64,000 bases of DNA. It comes from Coemansia sp. RSA 487 (Eukaryota > Kickxellomycota > Kickxellomycetes > Kickxellales > Kickxellaceae). The stretch spans positions 62,001 to 126,000 of the forward strand of contig JANBRJ010000018.1 of NCBI GenBank assembly GCA_027577595.1. Reading direction: 5' to 3'. Below are positions 1 through 63,181 of this stretch, piece after piece (within the stretch, counting starts at the first letter, position 1; every line of letters begins with the position of its first letter). A program made the position numbers and the translations under genes. The notes under the pieces were generated by a model, which ran no database searches, was not told the DNA's origin, and worked only from the letters and a program-made list of their open reading frames with translations.

Positions 1-2041
1 GTTTCCAATGAGTTTTGGCTATCCCTAACAACCCGGGTTTACTAGAAGTCGTATAGCTGGACATATCTAACATGATATAATCATCACTATCACATATATT
101 GAAACCTTTGCTTCAACACACTTTCCAAAACTTTTCCTATGATGAAAAGTTAGGAATATTTATATTTCTTTGTTGATAGCTTTTTTATTGACGCGCAAAG
201 TGGCAAACGTATTAAAGTACAGGAATAATTGTAAAAAATAACTAACGTTATAAACAAGCCAGTATATCAAGCACTTGTGTCTGTTATGAATGGTGGTAGA
301 TCCGTGATAGAAGAGTGCCTAGTGTCTTGGGTACTAGCATCGTTTGGTCGATGTATAAATCGTAGATGATCGAGGCGGTGGTCCATGGCGAAAGGTGTAG
401 AAGTGAAAGATAATATTATGCTCTCTTTTCCATCCAGATCGAACTGAAACCAACAGCTAGAGAAAAGAGAGACCACCTTTGTAATCGTAAATAATTATTT
501 GAAATCGTGAACAGCTCGGCCCATGAAAGATGCTTTCCAGCGATTAAACATGGTGTCGCCAGTGCGTACAGCACCCTTCTGGATGACTTCGGAGTGAGAG
601 CAGTAGAGCTCTCAGACTGCGAGACTATGTGACGCACCTGGATTAGGTAAAACAGCCTTCTACCCGTCGAATCGTGTGGCAACCATTTACTGGTTGACAA
701 AGAAACTGTTTCTGGATCTGTCAGCGTAGATAGCTTGGAGAAAGCGTGACAGGAGGAGCCAGAATCACCGAATATGCTTGCAACCCCGGAAATAATGTGA
801 TAGGAACTCTACGCATGCCTTACAATTCCTGCATATGTTCGATCTGTCAGGAACAAAATGGGTCAAATACTTTGGTTCTAGTAGGATTTTGTGTGGATTC
901 GCCTATGTTGACTCTGGCCGTTGTGTTTGACTCATTTATTCTGCTAACGGCATTAGCCATGTTGTCGAAATCTGAGCACGGTACGATCAGATCACTTTTT
1001 TCAAAGATGTTAACCTTTCCTTCTTTGTGCTGATCGATACGGACTGATATATCCGCACAAATGTCAACAAAAGTAACATCACAAAGCACTGTTCCTTTCT
1101 CATATTTTTTATTTATTTACTGATTTAGCCGTTTAGTCTTTGGACTTTTTTCACACAAATTGCTTTAAGCGCTTGGTTTTCTATTTGAATATCATGCCAT
1201 TATCATTATAAATGGTAGATCTTGCTGATATGTAGTTATCTGAGAAAATATAGCAGCATGTAAAAATTTTATTTATCTTGATAATGACATGATCTTCTCC
1301 ATCCTAGGTATTTGCCACATAAATTGCAAATAGTCAAACCGATTAGTCCTAAATACAGACATGGTAAGATACAGGAGTTCAAATGTAACTAACAAAATAA
1401 TATGTTATATCACAACGTCTAAATTAAATAATATTAATTAAAGTGACAAAGAGACGCATTTATCACTCTGGCTGGTTATTGTGAATACCGGTTGCCACAA
1501 CATATTCTTATTAATTCAGGATGGGATATTGTTTGTAATCTTGTGACTTGCAGTTTAATATTTCATAGATTCTGTAGACTGTCAGCTGAATAAAAAACAG
1601 AATGGCGGCTATGATGACGAGGTAAAAAAATTATCTAAAACATGTGTAGCTTTCACATGGCCTGCGCAGATATATGGAAAATATTTTGCTCCAAGATTGA
1701 GCTGCCTGACAACTCATCTATTCCTACATGAGTATGAATTGGGTCATGGTTTTTATATTATTTGTACATTCTAATACTTCAACCTGATATATATCGCCGG
1801 ATATTGCTCATGTCATGTGCATACCACCAGGCCAAAGCTGCTTGCAATATAATCCATGCCTTTCGATCTCTCGAAGTAATGGAAGTATCACAGCTATATA
1901 TTGCTAAGGCAGTGACTTTCTATCAATGCTTGCTTCTAAGTTTGCCATAGCCACCTCTTTTATTTAGACCCTTTGAAAGTCATAAGCATAATTTATATAC
2001 CATAGTCTGCTATTCCCTTTGTTATTCAATAAGCGTCACAC
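1..2041. other. AT-rich spacer with no convincing gene
   Basis: No complete gene is supported here. The stretch is AT-rich with many stops. One exon-like segment is open on the minus strand around 1089-847 (it contains the peptide VLCDVTFVD) and another around 700-416. Neither has an ATG that suits it, and I could not join them with good splice sites. They may be scraps of a decayed gene or chance. The last 100 bases presumably hold the promoter of the gene starting at 2042. Confidence 0.5.
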
Positions 2042-5523: not shown

Positions 5524-6321
5524 ATGGATGTTGGCGCTCTCATTAGCAGTCCATCCGCCGTTCCCGACGTAGGCGCTGCCGCGCCAAAGCCGTTCGAGTG
5601 CTCGTGGGACGAGTGCGACCGCTCGTTTGCACGCAAGTCGGATCTGGTGCGCCACTTCCGTATCCACACCGGCGTCAAGCCGTTCGAGTGTCCGTGGGGC
5701 GGATGCACAAAGCGCTTCATCCAGCGCTCGGCACTCAAGGTGCACTTCCGTACGCACTCGGGCGAGCGCCCACACACATGCGATGTCTGCGAGCGCAGCT
5801 TCAGCGACTCGTCGTCGCTTGCTCGCCACCGCCGCACGCATACCGGCGTGCGCCCCTACGTCTGCGACCACCCTGGGTGCAACAAGCGCTTCACGCGCAA
5901 GACCAGTCTGCGCAAGCACGCACAGACCCATGATCCAGACTACACACGCCCGCGCCGCCGCGCCGCCGATTCTGCCGATGCCGCGGAGAGGAGAAGCAGC
6001 ACAGCCACGTACACGCCGTCCTCGGGCTCCGTGTCGCCTGGTCTTTCACCATACAACAGTCGCCAGAGCACGCCTGGCACTGTAAGCACAGCCACGTCGC
6101 CAATGCTCAGCGTCCAGTATCTCGTATCACCACCACAGCAGATGCACGACGATGACGCCGGCCATTGCTACCAGAACAACAGCAGCAGCTACTATTGCAG
6201 TGCTGGTACAGCACCTACGTCGCCTGCGTACTCCAGCAGCGCATCGACAGCGTGCAGCAGCCCGTCAATGCGCGGCGCAGAAGGCATAAAGCTCCCACCG
6301 ATCAGTTCTCTTTTTCGCTGA
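5524..6321 (+). CDS. four-finger C2H2 transcription factor (paralogue A)
   Basis: This 265-residue protein has four tandem C2H2 fingers at its N-terminus. The ligands are C26/C31/H44/H48, C56/C61/H74/H78, C86/C89/H102/H106 and C114/C119/H132/H136. The linkers follow the TG-x-K/R-P pattern of DNA-binding polydactyl fingers. The helix contact residues (-1, 2, 3, 6) read RSDR, QSAV, DSSR and RTSK. A basic stretch (RPRRRAADS) follows, then a Ser/Thr/Pro-rich tail typical of a regulatory region. The gene is presumably a nuclear sequence-specific regulator with unknown targets. A second four-finger gene (9452-10285, opposite strand) has the same contact residues in fingers 1-3, so the two look like local duplicates. 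The start is the only ATG before finger 1. Confidence 0.85.
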   Translation: MDVGALISSPSAVPDVGAAAPKPFECSWDECDRSFARKSDLVRHFRIHTGVKPFECPWGGCTKRFIQRSALKVHFRTHSGERPHTCDVCERSFSDSSSLARHRRTHTGVRPYVCDHPGCNKRFTRKTSLRKHAQTHDPDYTRPRRRAADSADAAERRSSTATYTPSSGSVSPGLSPYNSRQSTPGTVSTATSPMLSVQYLVSPPQQMHDDDAGHCYQNNSSSYYCSAGTAPTSPAYSSSASTACSSPSMRGAEGIKLPPISSLFR

Positions 6322-9451: not shown

Positions 9452-10285
9452 TCAATACGGCGTGAAGCGCACGGCAGATGTGTGCAGGGCGCTGGTGCGC
9501 GGCGGCGGCAGGGCGCTCCTGCCATACAGCTGTGGCGACGGCGACGGGGTGGTCAGCGGCGCAAACATAGACGGGAACAGCGACGGGAGTCTGGAGTGCG
9601 TTGGCGCAGTTGGCAGTGGCAGACGCACAGACGCAGCCTTGGAGAGGACACCCAGGTACTCGTGCAGAGGCGGCAGGGTCTCTGGAGCGAGGGACGGCGA
9701 CGGCGACTGCACGGCGGGGCTGGGCGACGCGCCGCTTGACATTGGCGGAGTGGCAGGGGCGAACGAGTAGGCGGTGTCAACCGACGACATGGAGTCGGAT
9801 CTGGTTGCGCGGCACGGCAGCGCCAGCGCAGGAACGGCGGGCAGCCTGCTGCCGAGCGAGCCTGTGGGGCGTTTGAGCGAGTCCATGTGCCCGCGGTGGT
9901 GGCTGTTGTAGGCGCTCTTTGTGTAGAACTGCTTGTTGCAGCCAGCGAACGAACAGAGATACGTGCGCTTGCCGCTGTGTGTGTGGCGATGGCGGGCAAG
10001 CGAAGACGAGTCGCTGAAGCGCTTGCCGCAGTTTGGCTCCTTGCAGCAGTGCGGCTTCTCGCCCGAGTGCGTGCGCAGGTGCACGGTTAGCGCCGACTTT
10101 TGCACAAAGCGCTTGGCGCACTCGGCGTACGTGCAGGCGTAGGGCTTCTCGTTGGTGTGGATCCGGTAGTGGCGTTTGAGATCGGACTTGCGCGTGAAGC
10201 CCTTACGGCAGTCTTGCCACGAGCAGTGGTGCGAGCGGTGCTTGTCGCTGAGCAGCGAAGCGTCGGTGATTTCTCTGATATCCAT
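9452..10285 (-). CDS. four-finger C2H2 transcription factor (paralogue B)
   Basis: This 277-residue protein carries four tandem C2H2 fingers: C21/C26/H39/H43, C51/C56/H69/H73, C81/C86/H99/H103 and C111/C116/H129/H133. Contact residues of fingers 1-3 (RSDR, QSAV, DSSR) are the same as in the gene at 5524; finger 4 differs (TSAS, with a tyrosine in the helix). The C-terminal half is Pro/Ser/Leu-rich and disordered. The ATG at 10285 (MDIREITD) is the first in frame; the codons before it are non-ATG. A nuclear DNA-binding regulator is likely and targets are unknown. Inverted relative to its partner with MET17 between them, it suggests a local duplication followed by divergence of finger 4 and the tail. 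Confidence 0.85.
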   Translation of the reverse strand: MDIREITDASLLSDKHRSHHCSWQDCRKGFTRKSDLKRHYRIHTNEKPYACTYAECAKRFVQKSALTVHLRTHSGEKPHCCKEPNCGKRFSDSSSLARHRHTHSGKRTYLCSFAGCNKQFYTKSAYNSHHRGHMDSLKRPTGSLGSRLPAVPALALPCRATRSDSMSSVDTAYSFAPATPPMSSGASPSPAVQSPSPSLAPETLPPLHEYLGVLSKAASVRLPLPTAPTHSRLPSLFPSMFAPLTTPSPSPQLYGRSALPPPRTSALHTSAVRFTPY

Positions 10286-11011: not shown

Positions 11012-11767
11012 ATGCCGCCCGACTCGCCTACTTCCCGTTCGCCTGCTCCTGTTGCGCGTGCTGCATGCGCCTGGCGCTCCTGTTCCGCCGAATTCGGCAC
11101 ATTTCACCAGCTGGCTGCCCATCTGCTCTCCGCTCACATTGATTGCGAAAGCGCTAATTCGTGCGAATGGTACTTGTGCGACACTGGCGGCCACCCCATG
11201 CCCTCTCGAATGGACCTAATATCTCACCTCAAAACACATACCGGGAACCGCTCCTATCTGTGCCCCGTTGACGGCTGTGGCAAGGTATACAAGCGCTCTG
11301 ACTTTCTTGCGAAGCATATAAACACGCACTCGACACAACCAGCAGCTGCCGTTGGCGCTACTGCCCCAGCCCGCCTTCGCGCAAATCACGCTGCCGACGC
11401 CTCTGATGCGTCGTCTTTCGAGGATGCACCACTGGCGCTGATCTCCAATGCCGCCGCCACAGATACGCCGCAAAATCCCACACGCAAACGTCGGCGTTAC
11501 CGCCGCCGCCAGCAGCCCTCCCCTAAACCTGAAGACGATGACGATGACTCCAGCGATGGCTCCAGCTCCAGCAACCGCCGCCCCAAAGACTTCTCTGTCC
11601 CAGACATGCCAGAGTCAGAGCGCCAAGCCGCCATGCTCGAGGCACAGCTTGCTTACATTCGCGATCAGGTCTCCACACGCAAGGAGCTCCTGGTACGCAA
11701 CAAGACCAAGATGCGCCGTTTGCGTCTGGAAAACGACATCCTTATCGACGCACTTGCCCGCACATAG
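11012..11767 (+). CDS. three-finger C2H2 protein with C-terminal coiled coil, PacC/GLI-like finger layout
   Basis: This 251-residue protein starts at the ATG after a stop-poor leader. Finger 1 is C19/C24/H37/H42, finger 2 C51/C56/H72/H76 (longer loop) and finger 3 C84/C89/H102/H106 (regular, KRSDFLAKH). Two irregular CxW-type fingers followed by a regular one, with the spacing CAWRSC...CEWYLC...C-x4-C, is the layout of Rim101/PacC and GLI/ZIC proteins. An Ala-rich linker, an RKRRRYRRR nuclear-localisation-like cluster (about 155-165), an acidic-serine run and a C-terminal amphipathic helix (RQAAMLEAQLAYIRDQ onward) follow. It is short for PacC (over 600 residues), so it may be a relative and not the pH regulator. 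Adjacent zinc-finger genes make this a small cluster. Confidence 0.75.
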   Translation: MPPDSPTSRSPAPVARAACAWRSCSAEFGTFHQLAAHLLSAHIDCESANSCEWYLCDTGGHPMPSRMDLISHLKTHTGNRSYLCPVDGCGKVYKRSDFLAKHINTHSTQPAAAVGATAPARLRANHAADASDASSFEDAPLALISNAAATDTPQNPTRKRRRYRRRQQPSPKPEDDDDDSSDGSSSSNRRPKDFSVPDMPESERQAAMLEAQLAYIRDQVSTRKELLVRNKTKMRRLRLENDILIDALART

Positions 11768-11895: not shown

Positions 11896-11992
11896 TGCTC
11901 CATGCCAGGATCGAACTGGCGACATCCGCGTGACAAAGCATAGTGTGTATGCACTATAAGCACGATGCTCTAACCAGCTGAGCTAATGGAGC
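11896..11992 (-). tRNA. tRNA-Ile(UAU) with a 23-nt intron
   Basis: Reading the minus strand, the acceptor arms are GCTCCAT and ATGGAGC, with A as discriminator. The D arm is GCTC..GAGC. The anticodon stem TCGTG/CGCGG has five pairs, two of them U.G. The T arm is GCCAG-TTCGATC-CTGGC. The anticodon loop reads C-T-TAT-A and is interrupted one base after the anticodon by a 23-nt insert, then closes with A. Removing it gives a 74-nt tRNA. Minor isoleucine tRNA-UAU genes carry introns in many eukaryotes, and this insert includes ATA, able to pair with the anticodon as in known pre-tRNAs. No CCA is encoded, as expected. A T9 terminator follows. Confidence 0.92.
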
Positions 11993-12888
11993 GAATCAAA
12001 TCTATCTTCTCTCAGAAATTGAATGCACTATTTATACCTTTGGGGCCCCTTTGCGAGATTCTTTACGAGCTCAATTCAGACCATGTGCAGCACTTGAAAA
12101 GATGTACAAGCTATCTATGAAAAACCCAACCCAAGCACAAACTGGCACAGCATTTGAGATTCCAAAAAGCAAAAAAGAAGCCACCTATTGCTCTAAATAA
12201 ACCACAATAACACAATATTTTAAATCACGGTGAAATTACTGCTCTTGTTGAGAGAGATTTTGTATAAATACAACCTCCCTTACGATATTTGGGGTTTAGA
12301 CTGTTACAATTGTCGGTGACCTGCAGGGCCACTAAAGGGTAGATTCTGGGAGGGTATGATTATATAAGGAGCCTGCATCCTCAGATGTCAGCATCCGCCA
12401 AATGTTGCATGTCAGAACATTTGCAGTAACAATAGTAGTAGGATTACTTATAATAACTTGAGTTGGTCAAGTCAGAGGCTGAGTCTTATTCTCAGTTGGT
12501 ACGGGTCTGTTTATTGCAAGCATAATTATTCAAATGGAACTAAAGTTCCTCATCGTTTATTCAATAAACCGTGGCTTTTTATAGCTGCTACAACTAAACA
12601 GCTATTTGAATAATTGGATAGCATATGCTGTATGCTACTCAATAATATGATTGACTAGTGAGTTAATCATGTTGCGATTTCACTAGGCTTGCAAGTTGCT
12701 AAGCTGAAGCATTATCACAATTGTCTAATTGAGTTTCTAGTGGCTCCTTATATATACACTGATGATTGGAAGCCAAACAGAGGTCCTAAAGCTTCTTGAT
12801 CAGCCCCGGACAAAGAGGACTGAGAGCTGTGGGGAAGTGGTAGGAAAATAAACCAAAGTATTTCACAATACCAAGAAATTGCAGACAT
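11993..12888. other. AT-rich spacer upstream of the Fanzor relic
   Basis: No gene is supported. The stretch is AT-rich. It includes tRNA 5' flanking DNA and may include the unrecognised 5' end, intron or flanking sequence of the transposon relic downstream. I found no clear terminal inverted repeat by eye. Confidence 0.45.
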
Positions 12889-15545
12889 TTGAACCTCAGT
12901 CCACAACTTCTACTTTGCCAGCAACCAGAAACAAGGAAACCAGCATTTACAGGAGGCCACACAGTACTATGTGCGAATGTGGTTGTTCTCATTATAAAAG
13001 GTATACTCCATGTACACCAGCAGCACCAAAACAGTGAACAAAAGGCTATACAATGGCAAATAGCTCCAGGAAAAGGGGCCCAAGGAAGTGGACTTTTCTT
13101 ATATTTTCATTCTTTTCTAGTTCGTGCTTGTTTGAACAAGCAGCTTTTTGTGGAGGCATTCCTTCACTTGACTGCAAGGCAGGTACAGCAAGCTAAAGCT
13201 GTGACCGCCGCAGCTCGCCAACTAATGGGTAGCAAACATCTCATCAATTTTCAGTACTTGACAAATATGCTTCATCTTGGCATTGGCAGTTTCGGCCAAA
13301 TCTCTAGCAACGAGGGAGAGAAAATGCTAAATGCATACCTCAACAATGTTAAGTTGCGTTTTACTATTTATCTGCGCAAATCCATCGACGTTGTGCTGCA
13401 AACATGGCAGCGCAAGCATGCCATCCAGTGAGGGTCTCGTGGCCGTGCACAAAAGGCAAGGATACAAGCTAATATATCATGGCTAAAATATCAGGTCCAA
13501 GGCGCCATTCATACCAGATCCCATGACATCCGTGGCCTCTTCCCTCCCCTCCTGCCATTATCGCGATCCGTCGTCCAACGCCGATTCTCAATTCATATGT
13601 TACTGGTTATGAATTCAAAAAAACAATATTTATTATGACGTTAAGGCGCACCCTGAAGTGCATGCGAAGGCGTTTTTTAGGATTGCTCAGCTATTTGAGA
13701 CAGAAGATGAGCGCGTGTTCCAAAGTATGCCACTGCGCATGACATGGGTGCCATAGCACATAACTGTAGACACCGATGTTCTATCGCAGAACATATTACA
13801 AGACATGACGACAAGAACAGCATGTGTGATAGTGATTATTAGGTTCACGAGTTGCCGAGCTATCATCATTATCATATTGTTTTGTATAGGATCTTAGCGG
13901 CTATAAAAGCCAATGTTTTGTTCAACTAAAATTGATGAGGAACCTTAATTCCGCTTTGTCAAACTCTTGCGAAAGCATGCGAAAAATAAGGGAAACATAT
14001 GGTGGTGGGTTTTGGATTTCAAATCCAAAGCAATAGTTTCGCAAAGCGAGTGTAAATTTACACATACAGTACAAACAGGCGGCGTTTCTATTTCGATCAA
14101 AGAAAAAGAGAGTGGCGGCTGGAAGTCCAAACGAAAAACGGCAGTGAATCAAAGTATGTGAGCGACCTTGACAAGAGAAAGCTCAACGAAGCTATGGACA
14201 GAAGCGCATATTTGGATCCTAATCGCCACGACCTCGAACATGACATTCTTCCTGGCAGCACAGCAGAAGACTCAAAATGGATTCGCTACACTCGCAACCA
14301 ACACGTACACGAAATGAAAATACACAGGAATTAAGATATACTTACTGTTGTAAAAGCTGCGTGCCACAGCGGCATTGTGTTGGAGGCTGAGGAGAACCCC
14401 CCCCCCAACAAGTATCGTGCACGACGACGAGTCCTACAGAGTATAAAATATATTTGCGAACAAGAACAGCCAGGCACAGTGTTTTGAGCGAGTTTTACAC
14501 GGAAACGCTCACCAGCGCAAGGGATTCGGACAACATCTGTATCGTCGTTTGAGGCTTTCTACTCACATGAATCAGTTGGCGGCGGGCCAGCACCTTGCGA
14601 ATCATATACGAAAGAAGGCAGGGAGAAACAGCCTCGTGTTGATTATCAGTGACTGGCAGGCAACAATGGTGCGCTTCCAGGAGCCGATTCGCGGCATCGG
14701 CATGCTTCGTATGCTCAGACGACAGGGCTTCGAAGTGTATACAGTCGATGAGTTCCGGACATCGACGTTCTGCCCTAGCTGCGGTGGCATGCTGCGCAAG
14801 TGTCTCCGCGTCCAGAATCCGCGCAAGAAATTCCGAAAGAAACGCCTAATCGCTGTGTGCCATAGGCTGCTCGAGTGCACTAGCGGCAAGTGCATCCAGT
14901 GCGTGAAGGAAAAGCTGAGGGAACTCGATACGTGAATTGCAGAGTTTAAAGATCATCGTTGTCAACTCGAACGGAAGCGGCGCCAAAAATACAAACTACA
15001 ACAACAACATACGCAACAGCAGCAAAACCCACCATCTTGTCAGATGCACTGCTGTTGCAACCGCTTTTGCTGCTGAAGCTGCTCAACCGAGTCGCCGTTC
15101 CAAGCGCAGGGTTTCTCCAGGTGCTGGCGTCGTTCAGCCAAGTGGTAGTACCAGACGCAGAGTCGTTACTGTTGCTTCGTATGATCCCGAAGCCCAACCA
15201 AGCTGTTGTCGTTCCAAGCGCGAGGCTGCTACGGCCTCAACATCTGCTGCAGCTGCACCGGAGCATGGGCATACTGCCAAGCGCAAGCATGCTGACTGGC
15301 AGTGAAAACAAACCTTCACGTATCGGTATCGGTGTCGTATCAGCTATTGCTGATGCCATAAGCGATAAGCGGCCTTGCGCGTTTATCCCTGGCGATGGAC
15401 GTCTCTCAGGAGAGCCCCCTGCGACAGAATTCTCTTTGATCTGTTTTAGCGAGGGAGTTCGTTTCTGGGGCAATAAGGCGTGTAAATAGGGCTTTGGGGA
15501 TTTCGCGAATCCTCCAGCGAGAAACTGTAAAAGTATTCTGATGTT
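12889..15545 (+). pseudogene. decayed Fanzor1 (TnpB-like RNA-guided nuclease) element, copy 1
   Basis: Landmarks of Fanzor1 nucleases appear in the right order on the plus strand but in more than one frame. A helical N-terminal region (LNNVKLRF near 13345) comes first. Then come PLRMTWVP followed by HITVDTDVL (13730 on), TGGVSISI (about 14085), the RuvC-I-like DPNRHDLEHDI (14215) with RYTRNQ downstream, SDWQ (14650), and DEFRTSTFCPSC (14747-14782) leading into a second pair of cysteines (CTSGKCIQC). In Fanzor/TnpB these are the RuvC segments and the zinc ribbon. Several stops and frame changes interrupt it, so it is a fossil gene. A low-complexity tail (14937-15489) belongs to the same element because its 3' end recurs at 34722-35130. 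The 3' limit is set by that match; the 5' limit is uncertain. Confidence 0.85.
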
Positions 15546-15968
15546 CAGTGTTTGCTGCTTCTGTGTGTGTTTTATGTGCGTGAGATTGAATAATTCATAC
15601 GAGGAAGGTGATAGTTGTTACAAACGATGTTTGTTTCTTAGCTGGAAGGGAAAAAAAGCAGAGCTAAAGAAGCCTCCGACTGAGGGAGAGCCAAACAAAC
15701 CGTTGCTACTATTTGTGTTTCAAATTGAATATTTTACTAATACGTGCTTTTGGTTTTCTGGTAGCATTTGCATAATTTTTCACACGTCGTGAAAATTTTG
15801 TCTTATACAAACATTTCTTTCTCCCAAATAGCGTTTCAATCGAGTCGGCTCTCGTGTATGACTGCAACTAACTAACAATTTAGATTTATGAATTATCATT
15901 TTACTGGACAAGTGGGTATTATCCATAGATAGAAAAGACCCCGTCACCAACCGACAGAAATATAAGCT
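15546..15968. other. spacer upstream of the SET gene
   Basis: These 423 bp are AT-rich and contain no supported gene. An open frame of 83 codons from 15541 has no recognisable feature. The segment probably holds the SET gene promoter. Confidence 0.5.
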
Positions 15969-16472
15969 ATGGGAGAAAGTGGGGCTGACAACGTACAATC
16001 GATTACAACACTTAACTGCCTCGAGTTGCGCACGCATCCGCAGAGAGGCCGTGGTGTTTTCACACGAGAGCCGATTCCAAGGGGGACATTGGTGAATGTG
16101 TCTCCAACGCTTATTTTTGGCGCAGACGAGTACAACAAACACGGAAAGTTCACGCAGCTCGATCATTATACATACTGTTGGAGCAGCGGGAGCTTTGCTC
16201 TGGCGTTGGGCCTTGGCAGCATGTTCAACCATGAGTCCGCTGGTCATCAGAATGTTGGGTTTGTGCGGGACATCCAAAACTCGCTGATAAAGTACTCCAC
16301 GCTACGGGACATTGCGGCAGGCGAAGAGCTCTGCATCTGTTACGGCGAAAGCGTGTGGTTCGACGTTGTTACAGACTCTAACAACAAGCACAAGAGCATA
16401 GGTACTGAGCAGAGACCAAAGGAGGCAAAAGAGAGCGATGACGAAGACTTTTTGCGCAGCTTTGATCTTTAA
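15969..16472 (+). CDS. small SET-domain protein (putative lysine methyltransferase)
   Basis: This 167-residue protein is almost only a SET domain. GRGVFTREPIPRGTLV (27-42) is the SET N-terminal beta region, GLGSMFNHES (81-90) holds the NHxx S-adenosylmethionine and pseudoknot motif, and IKYSTLRDIAAGEELCICYG (107-126) the C-terminal motif with catalytic Tyr125. The usual NHS/C reads NHE, as in the small stand-alone SET proteins widespread in fungi. No post-SET cysteines follow; the tail is acidic (ESDDEDF). It probably methylates a protein lysine, but whether histone or not cannot be told. The ATG at 15969 is the first in frame and leaves the domain complete. It lies 251 bp upstream of the hydrolase gene on the same strand. 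Confidence 0.88.
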   Translation: MGESGADNVQSITTLNCLELRTHPQRGRGVFTREPIPRGTLVNVSPTLIFGADEYNKHGKFTQLDHYTYCWSSGSFALALGLGSMFNHESAGHQNVGFVRDIQNSLIKYSTLRDIAAGEELCICYGESVWFDVVTDSNNKHKSIGTEQRPKEAKESDDEDFLRSFDL

Positions 16473-32953: not shown

Positions 32954-34721
32954 TTTTGTAGCAAGTAGTCTGAAGTGGCGAATTAAGCGGGTGAATTGAT
33001 TTCTACTATTTTTAGTGCAAGCGGCAGAATACGCAAAGGGGAGATGTGCTGCTAAATAAAACTATAATATCAAATAAAAATATGATGGCTGTTTAGCTTA
33101 GAATAGCAAAGTGCAGGAGGGGAAGTCGACCAAAGTATATGTAAATAGTGGTTGGAGGCTTCACAAAAGTAGCTAGATTGGAGTTAGGGAGATGTGGGAA
33201 AAGTCTGGGATTGAGAAAACATTCGTGTTGCGGCGGCTTGCTCTGAATGCCGGCACATAGTGGCCATCGACAATGTTTGCTTTTATGTCTTTTCTGCCCG
33301 CCACTCACACATAGACACAGAAAGGCTTAACCAGTGCAACTAAGTCACTATTTTCTGTCGCACAAGCAAAAGTAGTAAGTGAGCAAGAGCGCAAGACAAA
33401 GGAAACAGGGCTTCTTGTTGTGCGACACCGAAAATAGCGAACAAAATCTAGAGAGGGGTGGGTGGTGCACAGCCTGGGCACATTTGCTATTGTTTCTCGT
33501 ATTGGAACAGCCATTATTTCAACTATTGCCTTGTTTTCTCTTTGCCCAGCTTGAACTGCGGTCATTTGCTCATTCAGGCGTCGCCACCCCCACCCTTGTT
33601 AATGAAACGAGGCAACAACCAAGAGCTCTACAACATACACAAAATTACTGTTCTACAGCGGAACTGTCAACGCAATGTCTGCTTCTATTTGATTTCTGAC
33701 ACGAGAAATGACTTGGCGCCATTAATTCTTCAAATAAGCAGTACCAGAGCGCTGAAATAATGCAAGTCACAGGGGCTGAGCCAAAGGAGGCGGATGCGCA
33801 AGACAAGAGACGACGATGCGCAAGAATCTCAAAAGATGGTGGGGCGGCTGTGCCTTCTAGTGTATGTATAAATCAATATCGCATTTCCAACTCAAGCGAT
33901 TGTGTCTGCTGTTTTCGGCCACAGGATCTGCACAATGGAACCTGCACACACACGCCTTGTTACAGGGGCATCTGGGTGCGGTGCCGGTGGCAAAACCTGA
34001 AGCAGAATGCACGCTCAGGCACCGTGAAGTCTGTGAGAATTCCGCATTGCAACCACCTCCGACTTTTCAAAGAAGCTCTATGTGCAATAGAGACAATTTT
34101 TCTAACCGATTCCGCCTATGATATACTTCAATTTGATGTTGGACAAAATACTCATGCTCCATTCCATTCCCTGTGGCCAGAAGCAGACCGTTGGTTCCTA
34201 GCACATCTAGTTTCTTGGATGTTGCACAAATGTGAGTTAACGTTTTACAGTTATCAGCCAAAAACCACACTATAGGCACCAGTGGTATTTCTGTGGAGAG
34301 TTACAAAACACAAAACAGAACCGCTGCTTGGGCCAGCCAACAGAAAGCGAGCGTTAATATCAATATCGGTAAACTAGCTTGTCAAGGGATTTTTGTATAA
34401 GCACAACCTTCTGTGCTGTGCTTGGTTGATGAATTTCGGATCAGGGGAGAGTAAGGGTATAAAATCCCATACAATAGAATGGTAAAAATAGCTTTTCAAA
34501 GTGCTATGTTGTGAAAATGACATCTGATGTGGAAACAGCGCAATTTCATTGTAATGACATGACATTTGTCATTTAACAATGGGAATGGCGGGATCCACTA
34601 TGGCATTGTCGTTCAGGTGATCTGTAGCATGCTAACGTTTTGATCAATATCGGTAAGAGACCGCCCAATATATACAGCCTGATGGAAACAGTTGATACTA
34701 TAATACAGAATACAGGACATC
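32954..34721. other. AT-rich spacer, possibly with a weak gene
   Basis: This stretch holds the ARO8 promoter and then sequence with no firm gene. The only frame worth noting is 33760-34275, listed separately. The rest has frequent stops in all frames. Confidence 0.45.
33760..34275 (+). CDS. doubtful hypothetical protein
   Basis: This open frame of 171 codons starts at an ATG. It has a basic start (DKRRRCARISKD), several cysteines and a C-terminal stretch with conserved-looking composition (YDILQFDVGQNTHAP, WPEADRWFLAHLV). A GTATGT..CCACAG segment inside it (about 33861-33923) could be a 63-nt intron whose length keeps the frame either way. I recognise no family. It lies in gene-poor DNA between ARO8 and a transposon relic, so it may be a chance frame or a gene remnant. 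Confidence 0.25.
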   Translation: MQVTGAEPKEADAQDKRRRCARISKDGGAAVPSSVCINQYRISNSSDCVCCFRPQDLHNGTCTHTPCYRGIWVRCRWQNLKQNARSGTVKSVRIPHCNHLRLFKEALCAIETIFLTDSAYDILQFDVGQNTHAPFHSLWPEADRWFLAHLVSWMLHKCELTFYSYQPKTTL

Positions 34722-35165
34722 AGAATGCTTATAGTTTCTCACTGGAGGATTTGAAACCCCCAAAGGCCTATTTACACGCCTTATTGCTTTATAAACGAAC
34801 CCCTCGCTAAAACAACTTGAAAAGTTTGTTACAAGGGATCCTCCTGAGAGGTGTCCATCGCCGGGGATAAAGGCGCAAAGCCACTTATGGCATCAGCTTT
34901 AACTGGTACAATATGATATGTGAAGGTTGCAGTTGCAGCTGCATTGGCATTGGCATTTGCTGCTGAGCATTGTCAGCAATAAAAGTGGTTGCAACAACAG
35001 TGTGTCTAGTAGAACGACGAGTTTGGTAGTGCATCTTTGCCTGCGTCTGCGATTGCTGTTGGCAGTTTTGGTGCCAATTCTGTACCTGATGATAGTGCTC
35101 TTGGTTAGCTGCCCATAGATATTATTAACTTTGTAAAAAAATACTACCAAATAACATAAAACCAA
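34722..35165 (-). pseudogene. 3' fragment of the Fanzor-family element, copy 3
   Basis: On the minus strand this segment matches the 3' part of copy 1 (about 15020-15545) at nucleotide level. Shared stretches include TGATGCCATAAG, CGGCGATGGA, CTCTCAGGAG, TGTTTTAGCGAGGG, GCAATAAGGCGTGTAAATAG and AATCCTCCAG. The encoded tail peptide RHTVVATTF corresponds to VRCTAVATAF in copy 1 and TRHAVATAEN in copy 2. The RuvC-coding part is not recognisable, so this is a truncated, dead copy. The end near 34722 is where similarity to copy 1 stops and may mark the 3' end of the element. Confidence 0.75.
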
Positions 35166-39659: not shown

Positions 39660-42600
39660 GGTCCGTTTGTAAATATATTAAGAGAGAGAGGCTGCGTGTG
39701 TGTGTTGGGTGGGATTATGCCTATATTAGACCCAATGGTGTGAGGATGTAGAATCCCACGACTATCAATAAATGATGCTTGCGTCGCACAAGCTAATGCA
39801 AATATAGATGGATAAGAGCGTTGAGATTATCAGGATATTAGCACCCAAGCTTTGGTAAAAAAAAATATTAGAAGAGTATAAAAATAATATATGCGAATAA
39901 TTCCTAGAGAGGAATGTCTGCTGTTTGGTGGGCAGAGTATAGGGTCTAAATATAAGCAAAAAAGATAATATACAACTTGACCGTGCAGACTCAACGACAA
40001 GACAGAGAAGGAGGGATGGGAAGGATGGGGGACGAGAATTGTGCGCTAGACCAGAGCAGAGGGAGCAGTAGGACTGGTTGTATTGTTGGGCTGCTATGCA
40101 TAAAAAGCAGAGTGCACTGACACTTGTGTAGTTGGGGGAGGGGCTGCTGTTAAGCAACGACGTCCACAAGTGCTTTAAAATACAGATGAACGCGCCAGGC
40201 GGGTAGTAAACGGAAAACAAAGCAAACAAAAAGTAGGGATGCAGGTACGACGAGTCTTAGAAAACGGGAATTCTGGAATCGTGGCCTACGCAAGCTCTAT
40301 AATGCCATCTGTTTCTGGTATGGAGTACACAAATAAAGAGAGGGTATTGCAGTAATGGCTAAAATAGCTGCCAATTCGAGATTGAGCAAAGTATGCAGAG
40401 TTGGACAGAAAGGAAAAAAGAGACGTGGATCATATGTCAGATAGACTGCACCGCTCAAATAATGGCATTGGCAGACATGCCTACCGCAACTAGGAATATT
40501 TATAGTTTTCGCTGTATATGGCCGCGTGCTGTCAAAGAGCAAAGCACTGAATGGGGGAAATCGACGTTTTCATTATCAAAGATATTCCCATTCAGTGCAG
40601 ATTTAGGCCAAGAACAAGGAGTAAAAATGGGCCATTGGGAAAAGCACAATAATCGAAGCAGCACTTTCTTTTGATTATTGTGCTTTTCCCAATGGCCCAT
40701 TTCTCATGCTTGTGTTCTTGGGCTAACGGAAATAATACAAGGTCATGCAAAATATGACCCGAACAAGGCGCTCGATGGGTAGCTTTGACACCCTCGCTTG
40801 CTTCTGAATGAGGATAAAGCCCATGTGGCGGCGATGGCGAGTGTAAACACTTTCACGCCTGTAAAAATACAATAGATCAGCAAATGCCACCAAAAATGGC
40901 AATATGCGATGGCTCTTTTATGCAGGGTCCAGGCGCAATATACCCAAAAATAAATAAATAAAACATGCATAATAATGGATGTGGCGGACACTAGAAGCCA
41001 ATATAACCCACAAATATTGTGTTTGTCTTTTTGAAAGCGTGTGGCATCACCACAAGAAAAGAAAGCAGTCGTGGGTCTAGATAGAACTAAGGAGATATCG
41101 TTAGAGCCATAAAAGCTGAGCAAGCCAAGATGCGCTGCAATAAAGTATGCGACTTTTCTAACCCCACAGACGCGCTTTATAATATAAACACACAGCATCT
41201 CCACATTCAATAAAAGCATAGTACTTTATCGATTGCTCTGCGTGTATTCTCTTGCGGGGCATATGGTAAAAAGAATGGCTTGCCCAGAGCTAGCTCCACT
41301 CAAGCAACCGTACACATACCTTGCTATCCGTAGTGTCTGTACACTTTCTAGAGCTATAGATATGCTTTAGACGCGAACAATCGCAGAATCGAAAAAGAAA
41401 CACAAGATTCTGAAAGTCGGTCTGCAAGCGATCAAGAGCGTGAGGAATAAAATGTTATTTGAGCGTTTGTGTTTAGATGCAGCTAACAATGTCTGCGTAT
41501 CTTTTGATTGCGGTTGAAGATCGCCCACAACAAACAATACAAGGTTAGGCCGTTGAATTACCACGAAGCAAGGAAACAAGGCAGAAAAGTACAAGAATAA
41601 ATAAATATCAAAACATAAATTATACAAGAAATAAAGAATCAGCAGCAAGGCCAAATGTAAAAATGGTGTAGCAGAATCGCAACTGATCTCAACCACAAAA
41701 ATAATACAAGCAAAATCTGCTAAAAGAAACAACCCAAGGAAAAGAAGCATGGGCAGACTCGCTGTTTCTTTTATTTGGAGCGCCTAGCCCATCATATTCG
41801 TTTTTTTGCATTTCCCTCCCGAATTCTCCCACGCATTCTCTCCTGTGCTAGGGAAGGGGGAAGCATCGGGTTTTGTACACAAAAGCAGTGGTGTTTGGTT
41901 GGAACAGAAATCGTGTGTGCAAAAATGGCGTTTGCTAGCAATTGGAAGCAGCGGCGGCGTAATAACCAGTGGTCGTTTGAAGCAAGCACTCTGCGTGCAG
42001 AAAGAAAAGACGTACACAACAGCACTTGTGGATGACTAACCAAGCAATTAAAAAAGCTCAAAGCTTATCTACGCGCGCAAGCAAGTAAGCAAGCAGTCAT
42101 TGTTGGTTACAGCCAGCTCCTAGCGAGCAGCGTCTGATGGTGATGGTGTGCTAGCTAGAAAATGGTAGGCTTCCGTATGAGCGATAGCAGTATTATTTTC
42201 ACATGTAACGCCTACACGCAATGCACATACATTGTGCTTAACTTAAAAGAAATTTGCCATACGATTTTAAACTCTGGATCCAAAAAAGTACGAATAGTCC
42301 TGTGCTATTTGGGAGAAAACAAGGTTTGTACTAGACAAGCGTTGACAAGGTAGATTTTCAACGATGTGTGAAAATCGAGTGTTTTCAGTTGTTTGCGAGA
42401 GAAAGCGTCGTTTGCAGCTACCAATACAAGATATAAAAAAGCAGGAGGAAAAGAAACCATGATGGGCGTTAGTAAAAAACATAGTCCATCAGAAACACAC
42501 AAATAGCGGTAAACATCATTTAGTAGCGACTGCAATAAACGCAAAAGCACAACAGCAGAATACTTACAACTAGGGTCAAAGTTTCCTAGATACCACCATC

Positions 42601-42766: not shown

Positions 42767-43420
42767 ATGTTAGTTTTTGGTAGCCGGGTTTTCGGCTGTG
42801 GCGACTGCGTGTCTCGTGCGGCTCCGAGTTTGGTAAGTATGTTGAAACTCTGCGGCAGCAGCAGAAACAGAAGCAGTGGAGCGTCTGAACGGTTCGGGAA
42901 CTTTTCTGTGATCGAGCTGTCAGTTGACGATATAGCAGAAGTTGATAGTGGCGGAAATATTTCAATTCCAGCATCTGGCTGTGGCAGTCAAAGCGGGGTT
43001 GTATTGCGCTACGCCACTCCTTATTTCCCTCCTGTTTTTGTTTGTTGCTTCCGCTACAGCCTTCATACATTCTGCACTCGTACATCCAAGCAAGCCATGA
43101 CATAAAACCTTGTGCTTTCTCTTCTCTACACCTCCAAACGGCCGCAGGTTATTAATTTTCTGGATTTTTTGAGCGCACCGTGGCATGACGGACACAGCCT
43201 CGAGGTGCGAAATTTGTTAAGCAAATAAACTTCAAATCCGAGCTGCTTTAGCATCCGCCGCATCCCGGCACCGTGAATGGGTTTATTTCAAACAAAACAT
43301 TGACTTTTATAGCCGTTAAACCTATAGAACTCATTCTGATAATGATGGCAGCTAGGCAGCTAGGCAACTCGCGAACCTAATCGCTACCACGCTCGCTGTT
43401 GTCTAGCTAGGATTTTTCTA
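42767..43420 (-). pseudogene. Fanzor-family element fragment, copy 2
   Basis: Read on the minus strand, GMRRMLKQLGFEVYLL followed by NKFRTSRLCPSC (about 43183-43218) matches the last RuvC segment and zinc ribbon of copy 1 (GMLRMLRRQGFEVYTV, DEFRTSTFCPSC). A second cysteine pair (CTSAEC after KVLCHGLLG) aligns with CTSGKC in copy 1. The tail peptide TRHAVATAEN follows. Upstream, 43285-43415 resembles 13810-13925 of copy 1 in nucleotides (TTAGGTTC, CGAGTTGCC, GGCTATAAAAG, CAATGTTTTGTT). Those two blocks lie much further apart in copy 1, so the middle of the gene, including RuvC-I, is absent here. The copy is broken in more than one place and non-functional. Confidence 0.8.
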
Positions 43421-61477: not shown

Positions 61478-63181
61478 CTAGAAAAGGGACCGCCGCACCG
61501 GCGGCTCGCGCATCCCCAGCGCCCTGCGCAGCTCACGCGATCGGAGCGCAATCGAGCGAAATTCAGCATCATTGGCATCGGCACCCGCTGCCACCAGCCG
61601 CTCCACAACTGCAACCCACCCACTGCGCGCCGCCGCTCGCAGCGCCTCGACGCCGCCACGCCCGCTTGCACTTGCACCGTGCGCCAGAAGGTCATCCACG
61701 ACTTCTGAATGGCCACCACGCGCCGCGTTGCGCAGCGGCGCTTCGTCTTTGGCGTGGACGTCGGCGCCAGCGCGCAGCAGCAGACGCACAATATCCGCAT
61801 GCCCGTGCTCGGCGGCGGCGCGCAGCGGCTCCTCGCCCAGTGCGTGGGCGTCTGCACCGTATGCTAAAAGGACCGCTGCAGTGCGAATCGATCCGCGCGC
61901 ACATGCGTAGACCAGTGGCCGCCCACCACGCGCGTTAGGGTTTGCGCCGCGCGCGAGCAGAAGCCGCACAACGCCGATATGTGTGACCACCGGGCGCTGG
62001 GCGGGTGGCACTGCAGCCGCCAGCTCATCCATGTTGATGCGGTCGCTGCGTGCGGCTGGCGTTATCGGCTGTGTCACCGGCGAACATGCCGATTGCGCCG
62101 GTGCCGACGGAGGCTGCTGCTGACTGCGAGGCCCCGACGCTGCGTTTCGATATCTCTGTGGCATGCACCTTGCGCGGTGATGTGGATGGCCAGGTGGCAG
62201 CGGCGCAATTGCTGCCGGAGTGTTGCAAAGCGCTGCGTCGCCGGTAGTCCCTGCGTACGAGTACTTGAGCAGCTCTGCCTGTGTTAGCCGCACCGTCTGC
62301 TGCTGACTTTGCCGGCATGCAGACATTGGCTCCAGAAGAGGTGGGCGCGGAAACTCGCCATCACCCTTGTAGCAGGCGGCTAGGATGCAACTTTCGTCCA
62401 GCGCCTGCACGCGCGCCCCGGCGTCTATCAGAACTTGGACCACGTCGATGTTGGCGTCACCCGCCATTGCCGCCGACCGCAATGCCCGCGAGTTGTCGGC
62501 CTGCGCATGGGCACCGTGTCGCAGCAGCTCGTGTACAGCTGCTGCGTGGCAGTTGCCTGCAGCCAGAACCAGCGGCTCGTCTTCAAATGCGTGGACGTCG
62601 GCGCCTGCGCCGATCAGCAGCCGCACGACACCCGTCTGCCCAAGCCCCGCCGCAATGCGCAGGGCCGCATCGTCGTCATCGCAAATGTCCACCAGCCGCG
62701 CTCCGTCGCCGCCTGTGCCCTGCGCGAAGCCTGTGGTGCTGCCGCGCCAGTTATCCAGCCCCGCTGCACCTCCTTCGGTCGCTGGCGCCGCTGCCCGCGC
62801 CGGCATCTGTAGCAGCTTGCGTACGATCGGCTCCCAACCCTGTGCGCACGCATGGCGCAGGATCCACTGGTCGTCGGCGCGCGGATCAGCACCCATATTC
62901 AGCAGAAGCAGAACAAGGTCTTGTCTGAACATGCGTGGCCGCCGCCCCGCAAGCCCCACGCGCCCATCCAGCACCTGCTTCTGTCCAAACTCCGCCAGGC
63001 AGTATCGCGCACGCACCGCCCGTGACAGCGACACCTCGTGCAGCCCCCGCGACACGTACGCCAGCGTCGGCCACTGCGCCTGCACAAAGATCCGGCACAG
63101 AATGTCGAATGGCAGCACCTTGTCCATCGCTGCTCCATCGCCGTCGCTACTGCGGCTGTCGCTGGCAGAGTATCGCTTCAT
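61478..63181 (-). CDS. F-box-like ankyrin-repeat protein
   Basis: This 567-residue protein starts at the ATG at 63181 (MKRYSAS); the frame extends upstream only without ATG. An F-box-like helix pair lies near the N-terminus (VLPFDILCRIFVQAQWPTLA, about 22-41, then YVSRGLHEVSLS). Ankyrin repeats begin near residue 75 (LLLLNMGADPRADD). Clear repeats include VRLLIGAGADVHAFEDEPLV, VQVLIDAGARVQALDES, VRLLLARGANPNARGG, VLLAYGADAHALGEEPLRAA and VRLLLRAGADVHAKDEAPLR, roughly ten in all. A Pro/Gln/Ser-rich spacer (about 300-375) splits them. F-box proteins recruit substrates to SCF ubiquitin ligases and ankyrin arrays bind partner proteins, so a substrate adaptor is the natural inference. The substrate is unknown. 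It is very GC-rich compared with its flanks. Confidence 0.8.
   Translation of the reverse strand: MKRYSASDSRSSDGDGAAMDKVLPFDILCRIFVQAQWPTLAYVSRGLHEVSLSRAVRARYCLAEFGQKQVLDGRVGLAGRRPRMFRQDLVLLLLNMGADPRADDQWILRHACAQGWEPIVRKLLQMPARAAAPATEGGAAGLDNWRGSTTGFAQGTGGDGARLVDICDDDDAALRIAAGLGQTGVVRLLIGAGADVHAFEDEPLVLAAGNCHAAAVHELLRHGAHAQADNSRALRSAAMAGDANIDVVQVLIDAGARVQALDESCILAACYKGDGEFPRPPLLEPMSACRQSQQQTVRLTQAELLKYSYAGTTGDAALCNTPAAIAPLPPGHPHHRARCMPQRYRNAASGPRSQQQPPSAPAQSACSPVTQPITPAARSDRINMDELAAAVPPAQRPVVTHIGVVRLLLARGANPNARGGRPLVYACARGSIRTAAVLLAYGADAHALGEEPLRAAAEHGHADIVRLLLRAGADVHAKDEAPLRNAARGGHSEVVDDLLAHGASASGRGGVEALRAAARSGWVAVVERLVAAGADANDAEFRSIALRSRELRRALGMREPPVRRSLF

Follow-up and report, generated by a model that had tools for sequence, protein, structure and literature searches.

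The Fanzor1 remnant and its surroundings

The window (the whole 64-kb stretch of Coemansia sp. RSA 487 DNA that was analysed) encodes eIF6, UreF, FBPase, a PRMT1-like enzyme and a protein resembling DENR, a gene set that marks the DNA as eukaryotic. For eIF6, the best-scoring chains are what we take to be the fission-yeast and budding-yeast proteins, with the presumed human chain close behind; for the PRMT1-like enzyme, chains that we take to be mammalian outscore the presumed yeast one. By these genes alone, a fungal host is likely. On the plus strand, five segments spanning 13111 to 14899 almost certainly represent the fossil of a Fanzor1 gene (copy A). The preliminary description had placed this gene at 12889–15545, which does fall on the Fanzor1 locus, but recognizable homology begins only at about 13111, the coding remains end by 14935 and the element as a whole appears to extend well beyond the gene on both sides.

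About 255 nt before the left end of the element lies a 97-nt gene called as tRNA-Tyr (11896–11992, anticodon ATA), the length of which could accommodate an intron, and about 130 nt past the right end starts a SET-domain open frame (15966–16469; Pfam E = 2.8e-12). A Pfam search with ten stretches (E up to 10) returned a weak match to the zinc ribbon of copy A, this SET match and, weakly, a PR domain on one ORF nearby, and two hits no better than chance (0.1 and 0.21). Elsewhere in the window, ORFs that look C2H2 zinc-finger-like by eye are found at 5632–5887 and 9931–10192 (on opposite strands; 70% over 264 columns), with a third at 11012–11767. An ORF that is ankyrin-like by eye contains a 93-column direct repeat (61733–61825 and 62570–62662; 73%), and 40603–40726 is a 124-nt near-palindrome (81% match to its own reverse complement) resembling a small inverted-repeat element.

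Seven landmark strings had been singled out in copy A as the RuvC segments and zinc ribbon of Fanzor1. Each occurs once in the six frames of the window, all on the plus strand and in the order given: PLRMTWVP (13730–13753), HITVDTDVL (13757–13783), TGGVSISI (14075–14098), DPNRHDL (14215–14235), RYTRNQ (14284–14301), SDWQ (14648–14659) and DEFRTSTFCPSC (14747–14782). They sit in separate reading-frame pieces, with stops and frame changes between them. Their assignment holds in part: RuvC-I is found in DPN and RuvC-II in DEFRTS, whereas SDWQ, PLRMTWVP, HITVDTDVL and TGGVSISI are, to judge from the alignments, conserved but not catalytic positions.

The identity of the gene as a Fanzor1 is borne out by homology to solved Fanzor1 proteins. 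In a search of 177,635 PDB sequences (E up to 10), the piece 14447–14932 (162 residues) matched three distinct sequences, all of them Fanzor1: PpFz1 from Parasitella parasitica (PDB codes 9cf0–9cf3; 2.5e-23), SpuFz1 from Spizellomyces punctatus (7.3e-10) and GtFz1 from Guillardia theta (0.12). Frame 13613–14158, with X at the stops, likewise matched only PpFz1 (2.1e-14), SpuFz1 (6.7e-4) and GtFz1 (0.078), and its first part alone had PpFz1 as its sole match (1.8e-8). PpFz1 was also the sole match, a weak one, of piece 12844–13428 (E = 0.16). Piece 14056–14331 placed PpFz1 second (0.32) after an unrelated caspase (0.013), a hit that we take to be due to chance, and piece 13949–14158 searched alone gave no Fanzor match in the PDB, only an unrelated chain at 0.61. 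The matched chain positions of PpFz1 rise along the window (566–663, 738–800, 808–852, 871–923 and 1096–1214), the five segments being collinear with this protein. PpFz1 fragments used as queries against the window recovered them, in order, at 3.8e-5, 1.9e-17, 0.001, 5.3e-6 and 3.9e-26, values that are flattering because the fragments were trimmed to their matched parts; with the PpFz1 and SpuFz1 fragments against the reversed window, the best E was only 0.28.

Weak matches of the zinc ribbon to the TnpB-family models PF07282 (Pfam; 1.2e-3) and NF040570 (NCBIfam; 7.4e-4) might point to a decayed bacterial-type TnpB or to a Fanzor2. However, both matches are under the cut-off, the segments that precede the zinc ribbon are also Fanzor1-like, with PpFz1 best and SpuFz1 second, and phage records gave nothing at E up to 1, all of which makes such an origin, judged against solved structures and the TnpB models, highly improbable. 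Among PDB sequences, Fanzor1 chains are the sole matches of the two strong pieces of copy A, and the TnpB models score more weakly. In viral contigs, a pattern search with the zinc-ribbon piece found nothing; of 164 pattern matches obtained there for an alignment with the PpFz1 and SpuFz1 fragments none was confirmed, nor were any of the 113 obtained from bacterial and archaeal genomes.

The first remnant of the Fanzor1 gene (13111–13428, frame 1, with the match itself at 13111–13389) corresponds to about PpFz1 566–663 and is followed by a stop at 13429–13431. The second (13616–13804, frame 2; about 738–800) has a stop within the matched segment (13754–13756), and the third (13994–14098, frame 2; about 808–852), which includes TGGVSISI, was recognized as a second domain in the match of frame 13613–14158. 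RuvC-I lies in the fourth (14146–14331, frame 1), after which comes another stop (14332–14334). The fifth (14540–14899, frame 2) carries the RuvC-II region and a C4 zinc ribbon in which all four Cys codons are retained (14771, 14780, 14876 and 14891); this half is 37% identical to PpFz1. The succession of frames (1, 2, 2, 1, 2) amounts to three frame changes.

Between the second and third matched segments lie 180 nt, where PpFz1 has seven residues, and they consist mostly of a short repeat (13816–13952, plus strand). A partial copy occurs in inverted orientation at 12536–12590 (minus strand; 76% over 58 columns to 13895–13952, E = 1.8e-4), and a further one at 43291–43400 (minus strand; 74%, E = 1e-12) in the element that we call copy C, where it directly adjoins what is left of the zinc ribbon. 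The repeat separates coding segments that are almost adjacent in PpFz1, as an intron of the Fanzor gene might, but neither of the other two copies occupies the corresponding place and we consider an intron unlikely. An insertion is the reading adopted here for 13816–13952. The stretch 13816–13922 was at one stage a candidate for conserved coding sequence and was dropped after alignment of the repeat copies.

The catalytic residues of SpuFz1 are given as D383, E541 and D606 (PMC11423790). In the alignments, the Glu of DEYKTS is at chain position 935 and the Asp of WNRD, the RuvC-III motif in PpFz1 and SpuFz1, is at position 1000, a distance of 65 as between 541 and 606, and from its spacing D383 would fall on the DPG-type motif. 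The catalytic positions would then be DPN for RuvC-I, DEFRTS for RuvC-II and WNRD, after the zinc ribbon, for RuvC-III. Copy A retains the Asp of RuvC-I in DPNRHDL (codon 14215) and the Glu of RuvC-II in DEFRTS (codon 14750). The motif described by Bao and Jurka is D-X(125,275)-[TS][TS]XX-C4 finger, with RD 5–50 residues after the finger (PMC3627910); in copy A, about 181 codons, counted across a frame change, separate the D at 14215 from the TS at 14759, and the four Cys are present. Searched with the PpFz1 stretch that contains RuvC-III (RD/WNRD), copy A gave nothing at E up to 5. We read the missing RD as decay, the claim being for the remains of a Fanzor1 and not for a working one. The preliminary description rightly called the gene interrupted: judged by its stops, its three frame changes, the inserted repeat and the lack of a recognizable RuvC-III, it is dead.

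Two further copies and a conserved non-coding block

The other two copies are on the minus strand, copy B at 35.09–34.71 kb and copy C at about 43.93–42.30 kb, and copy A does, as had been claimed, keep more of the protein than either. Copy C has a zinc-ribbon remnant in two frames (43049–43284, minus strand; 60% amino-acid identity with copy A across 40 residues, E = 3.7e-12; PpFz1 fragment 1e-10 and 1.6e-5), with a K at the RuvC-II Glu position. Its RuvC-III remnant (42923–42976, minus strand), preceded by a stop and with N at the Asp position, is a weak second domain (E = 0.32 alone) that is supported by its position. Near copy B, searches of the window with copy A and with the PpFz1 and SpuFz1 fragments gave no recognizable Fanzor match. 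Past its coding remains, copy A has a tail (14962–15085, plus strand) that aligns with 35092–34964 of copy B (minus strand) over 130 columns at 65% (E = 4e-9), and because of this common tail copy B is assigned to the same element as copy A.

Beyond the tail, at 15337–15552 (plus strand), is a conserved non-coding block of 216 nt, a candidate omega-RNA region, which matches 34709–34909 of copy B (minus strand) at 77% (E = 3e-38). The A–B alignment has gaps of 7, 3, 1, 2 and 2 nt, which disfavours a shared protein. The fold of the block beats 198 of 200 shuffles in copy A (z of -2.49) and 194 of 200 in copy B (z of -1.98). A two-sequence consensus of the block and its flanks contains 59 pairs, two of which vary at both positions, including one that lies outside the block; such covariation is weak, because the structure was predicted from the same two sequences. 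Across the window, a profile of the A and B blocks recovers these two at 1e-69 or better, the next best match being at E = 1.3. Copy C matches the block only over a 25-nt stretch at its 3' end (15531–15555 with 42565–42541, E = 0.09), and A and C have sequence in common some 280 nt past the block. Viral contigs contained no exact match to a 20-base motif of the block, and a tRNA was the only Rfam hit at gathering scores.

By its position after the end of the Fanzor1 coding sequence, and by analogy with known elements, the block is probably the omega-RNA region, a reading that we hold with some reserve. Omega-RNA lengths of 75 nt for PpFz1, 90 nt for SpuFz1 and 150 nt for GtFz1 are listed in PMC11423790; since the block is longer, the RNA may correspond to its 3' part only. 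The excess length, the weak covariation and the reliance on only two copies also fit a different account, in which the 216 nt belong to an untranslated tail, or are one more short repeat, following the Fanzor gene in copy A; a further short repeat is indeed present in the window, and the sequence shared by A and C runs beyond the block. Against this, the tail between coding end and block is likewise common to A and B, and the block lies after the stop, where the SpuFz1 omega-RNA is placed in PMC10432273. We regard the untranslated-tail or repeat account as a distinct possibility, if not the expected outcome, and continue with the omega-RNA region as the preferred reading.

Ends of the element

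Copies A and C share sequences at both ends, in line with the coding remains. At the left end of copy A (12248–12301, plus strand), 12259–12301 aligns with the left end of copy C (43932–43890, minus strand) at 84% over 43 nt (E = 1.7e-7). A wider A–C alignment here was reached in none of 300 shuffles, and the core 17-mer of this end occurs three times at up to three mismatches, a count reached in none of 100 shuffles. The right end of copy A (15798–15832, plus strand) matches 42338–42304 of copy C (minus strand) at 86% over 35 nt (E = 7e-6). The ends and the guide-RNA region had been described as unknown; both can now be proposed, with borders of the copy A element that would lie roughly at 12.25 and 15.83 kb (about 12250 and about 15832) and the block at 15337–15552 as the putative guide-RNA region.

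Downstream of the copy B block is a left-type end in inverted orientation (34385–34504, plus strand), which aligns with the copy C left end at 67% over 126 columns (E = 0.14); a longer alignment was reached in none of 300 shuffles. The sequence TTACCGATATTGAT has exactly two occurrences in the window (34643–34656 and 34359–34372, minus strand), flanking this end-like sequence. Comparison of the left end with the inverted right end gave a score reached by 12 of 500 shuffles for copy A and by 432 of 500 for copy C. The end near copy B compared with the inverted right end of A was equalled in 3 of 500 shuffles, and its best fit was to the right end of C in direct orientation (0 of 500); the left end of copy A against its own right end in direct orientation was matched by 20 of 500. 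The orientation of the ends is ambiguous because the end sequence itself is nearly palindromic. No target-site duplication of at least 5 bp was found at copy A; the best exact duplication at B and C was 6 bp, which was matched by 24 of 100 random placements in a control covering exact matches only.

Relation to known Fanzor1 elements

PpFz1 is the best match of the strong pieces, has the same order of segments and shares the RuvC-I, RuvC-II and zinc-ribbon landmarks. It differs in having about 172 residues between chain positions 923 and 1096, compared with about 80 codons in copy A, which is moreover broken and has no recognizable RuvC-III. The FRI domain of PpFz1 (roughly 100 residues) presumably lies in this interval. 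From the shorter gap in copy A, the FRI domain is probably absent, although a deletion is possible.

That fungi carry Fanzors, as the preliminary description stated, is already in print: Fanzor1 elements of fungi, together with partial copies and ghost loci, are described in PMC3627910 and PMC10432273. Spu-1 of Spizellomyces punctatus and its ghost loci likewise comprise full, partial and ORF-less copies, and a conserved non-coding region follows the stop codon, but the scaffold is about 75 nt long and lies at a 30-nt inverted repeat, compared with the shared block of 216 nt seen here (PMC10432273). The SpuFz1 scaffold also stops at the element end, whereas here the sequence shared by A and C extends past the block and the inverted repeats are ambiguous. 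Copy B, with its block and tail, its lack of a nuclease match and one inverted end-like sequence nearby, resembles the published ghost loci. The MuDr-type fungal Fanzor1 elements ROr-4, PBl-3 and MCi-4 likewise show no transposase, but have terminal inverted repeats and 9-bp duplications (PMC3627910). Among the matches listed in literature searches, none on Kickxellales concerned Fanzor, and for Fanzor together with fungi, pseudogene and ghost only Saito et al. mention Fanzor.

The best explanation for these observations is that one family of Fanzor1 elements has left three insertions in the window, all of them old and dead. From what is left of each, copy A is the most complete but broken, copy C is internally deleted and copy B consists of 3' non-coding sequence only. 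By analogy with published Fanzor1 biology, the protein of the intact ancestor would have bound an omega-RNA from the conserved block after the gene, the 3' end of the omega-RNA would have supplied the guide, and the RuvC site would have cleaved DNA that matched it next to a short motif; such cutting would favour retention or copying of the element, which was presumably moved by some transposase. All three copies are presumably inactive now. A more speculative variant, which we consider improbable, is that the block represents an exceptionally long omega-RNA from an FRI-less Fanzor1 family, the ORF-less copies of which, such as B, were retained and spread as genes for guide RNAs, with an intact Fanzor1 at another place in the genome serving them in trans.

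As three dead insertions, the locus is a genuine, and not unexpected, member of a kind already published, and knowledge of Fanzors is unchanged unless intact copies turn up. What it contributes is a decayed Fanzor1 family, represented by three wrecks within 64 kb, and in 15337–15552 it provides a concrete sequence with which the guide RNAs and ghost copies of this family may be found.
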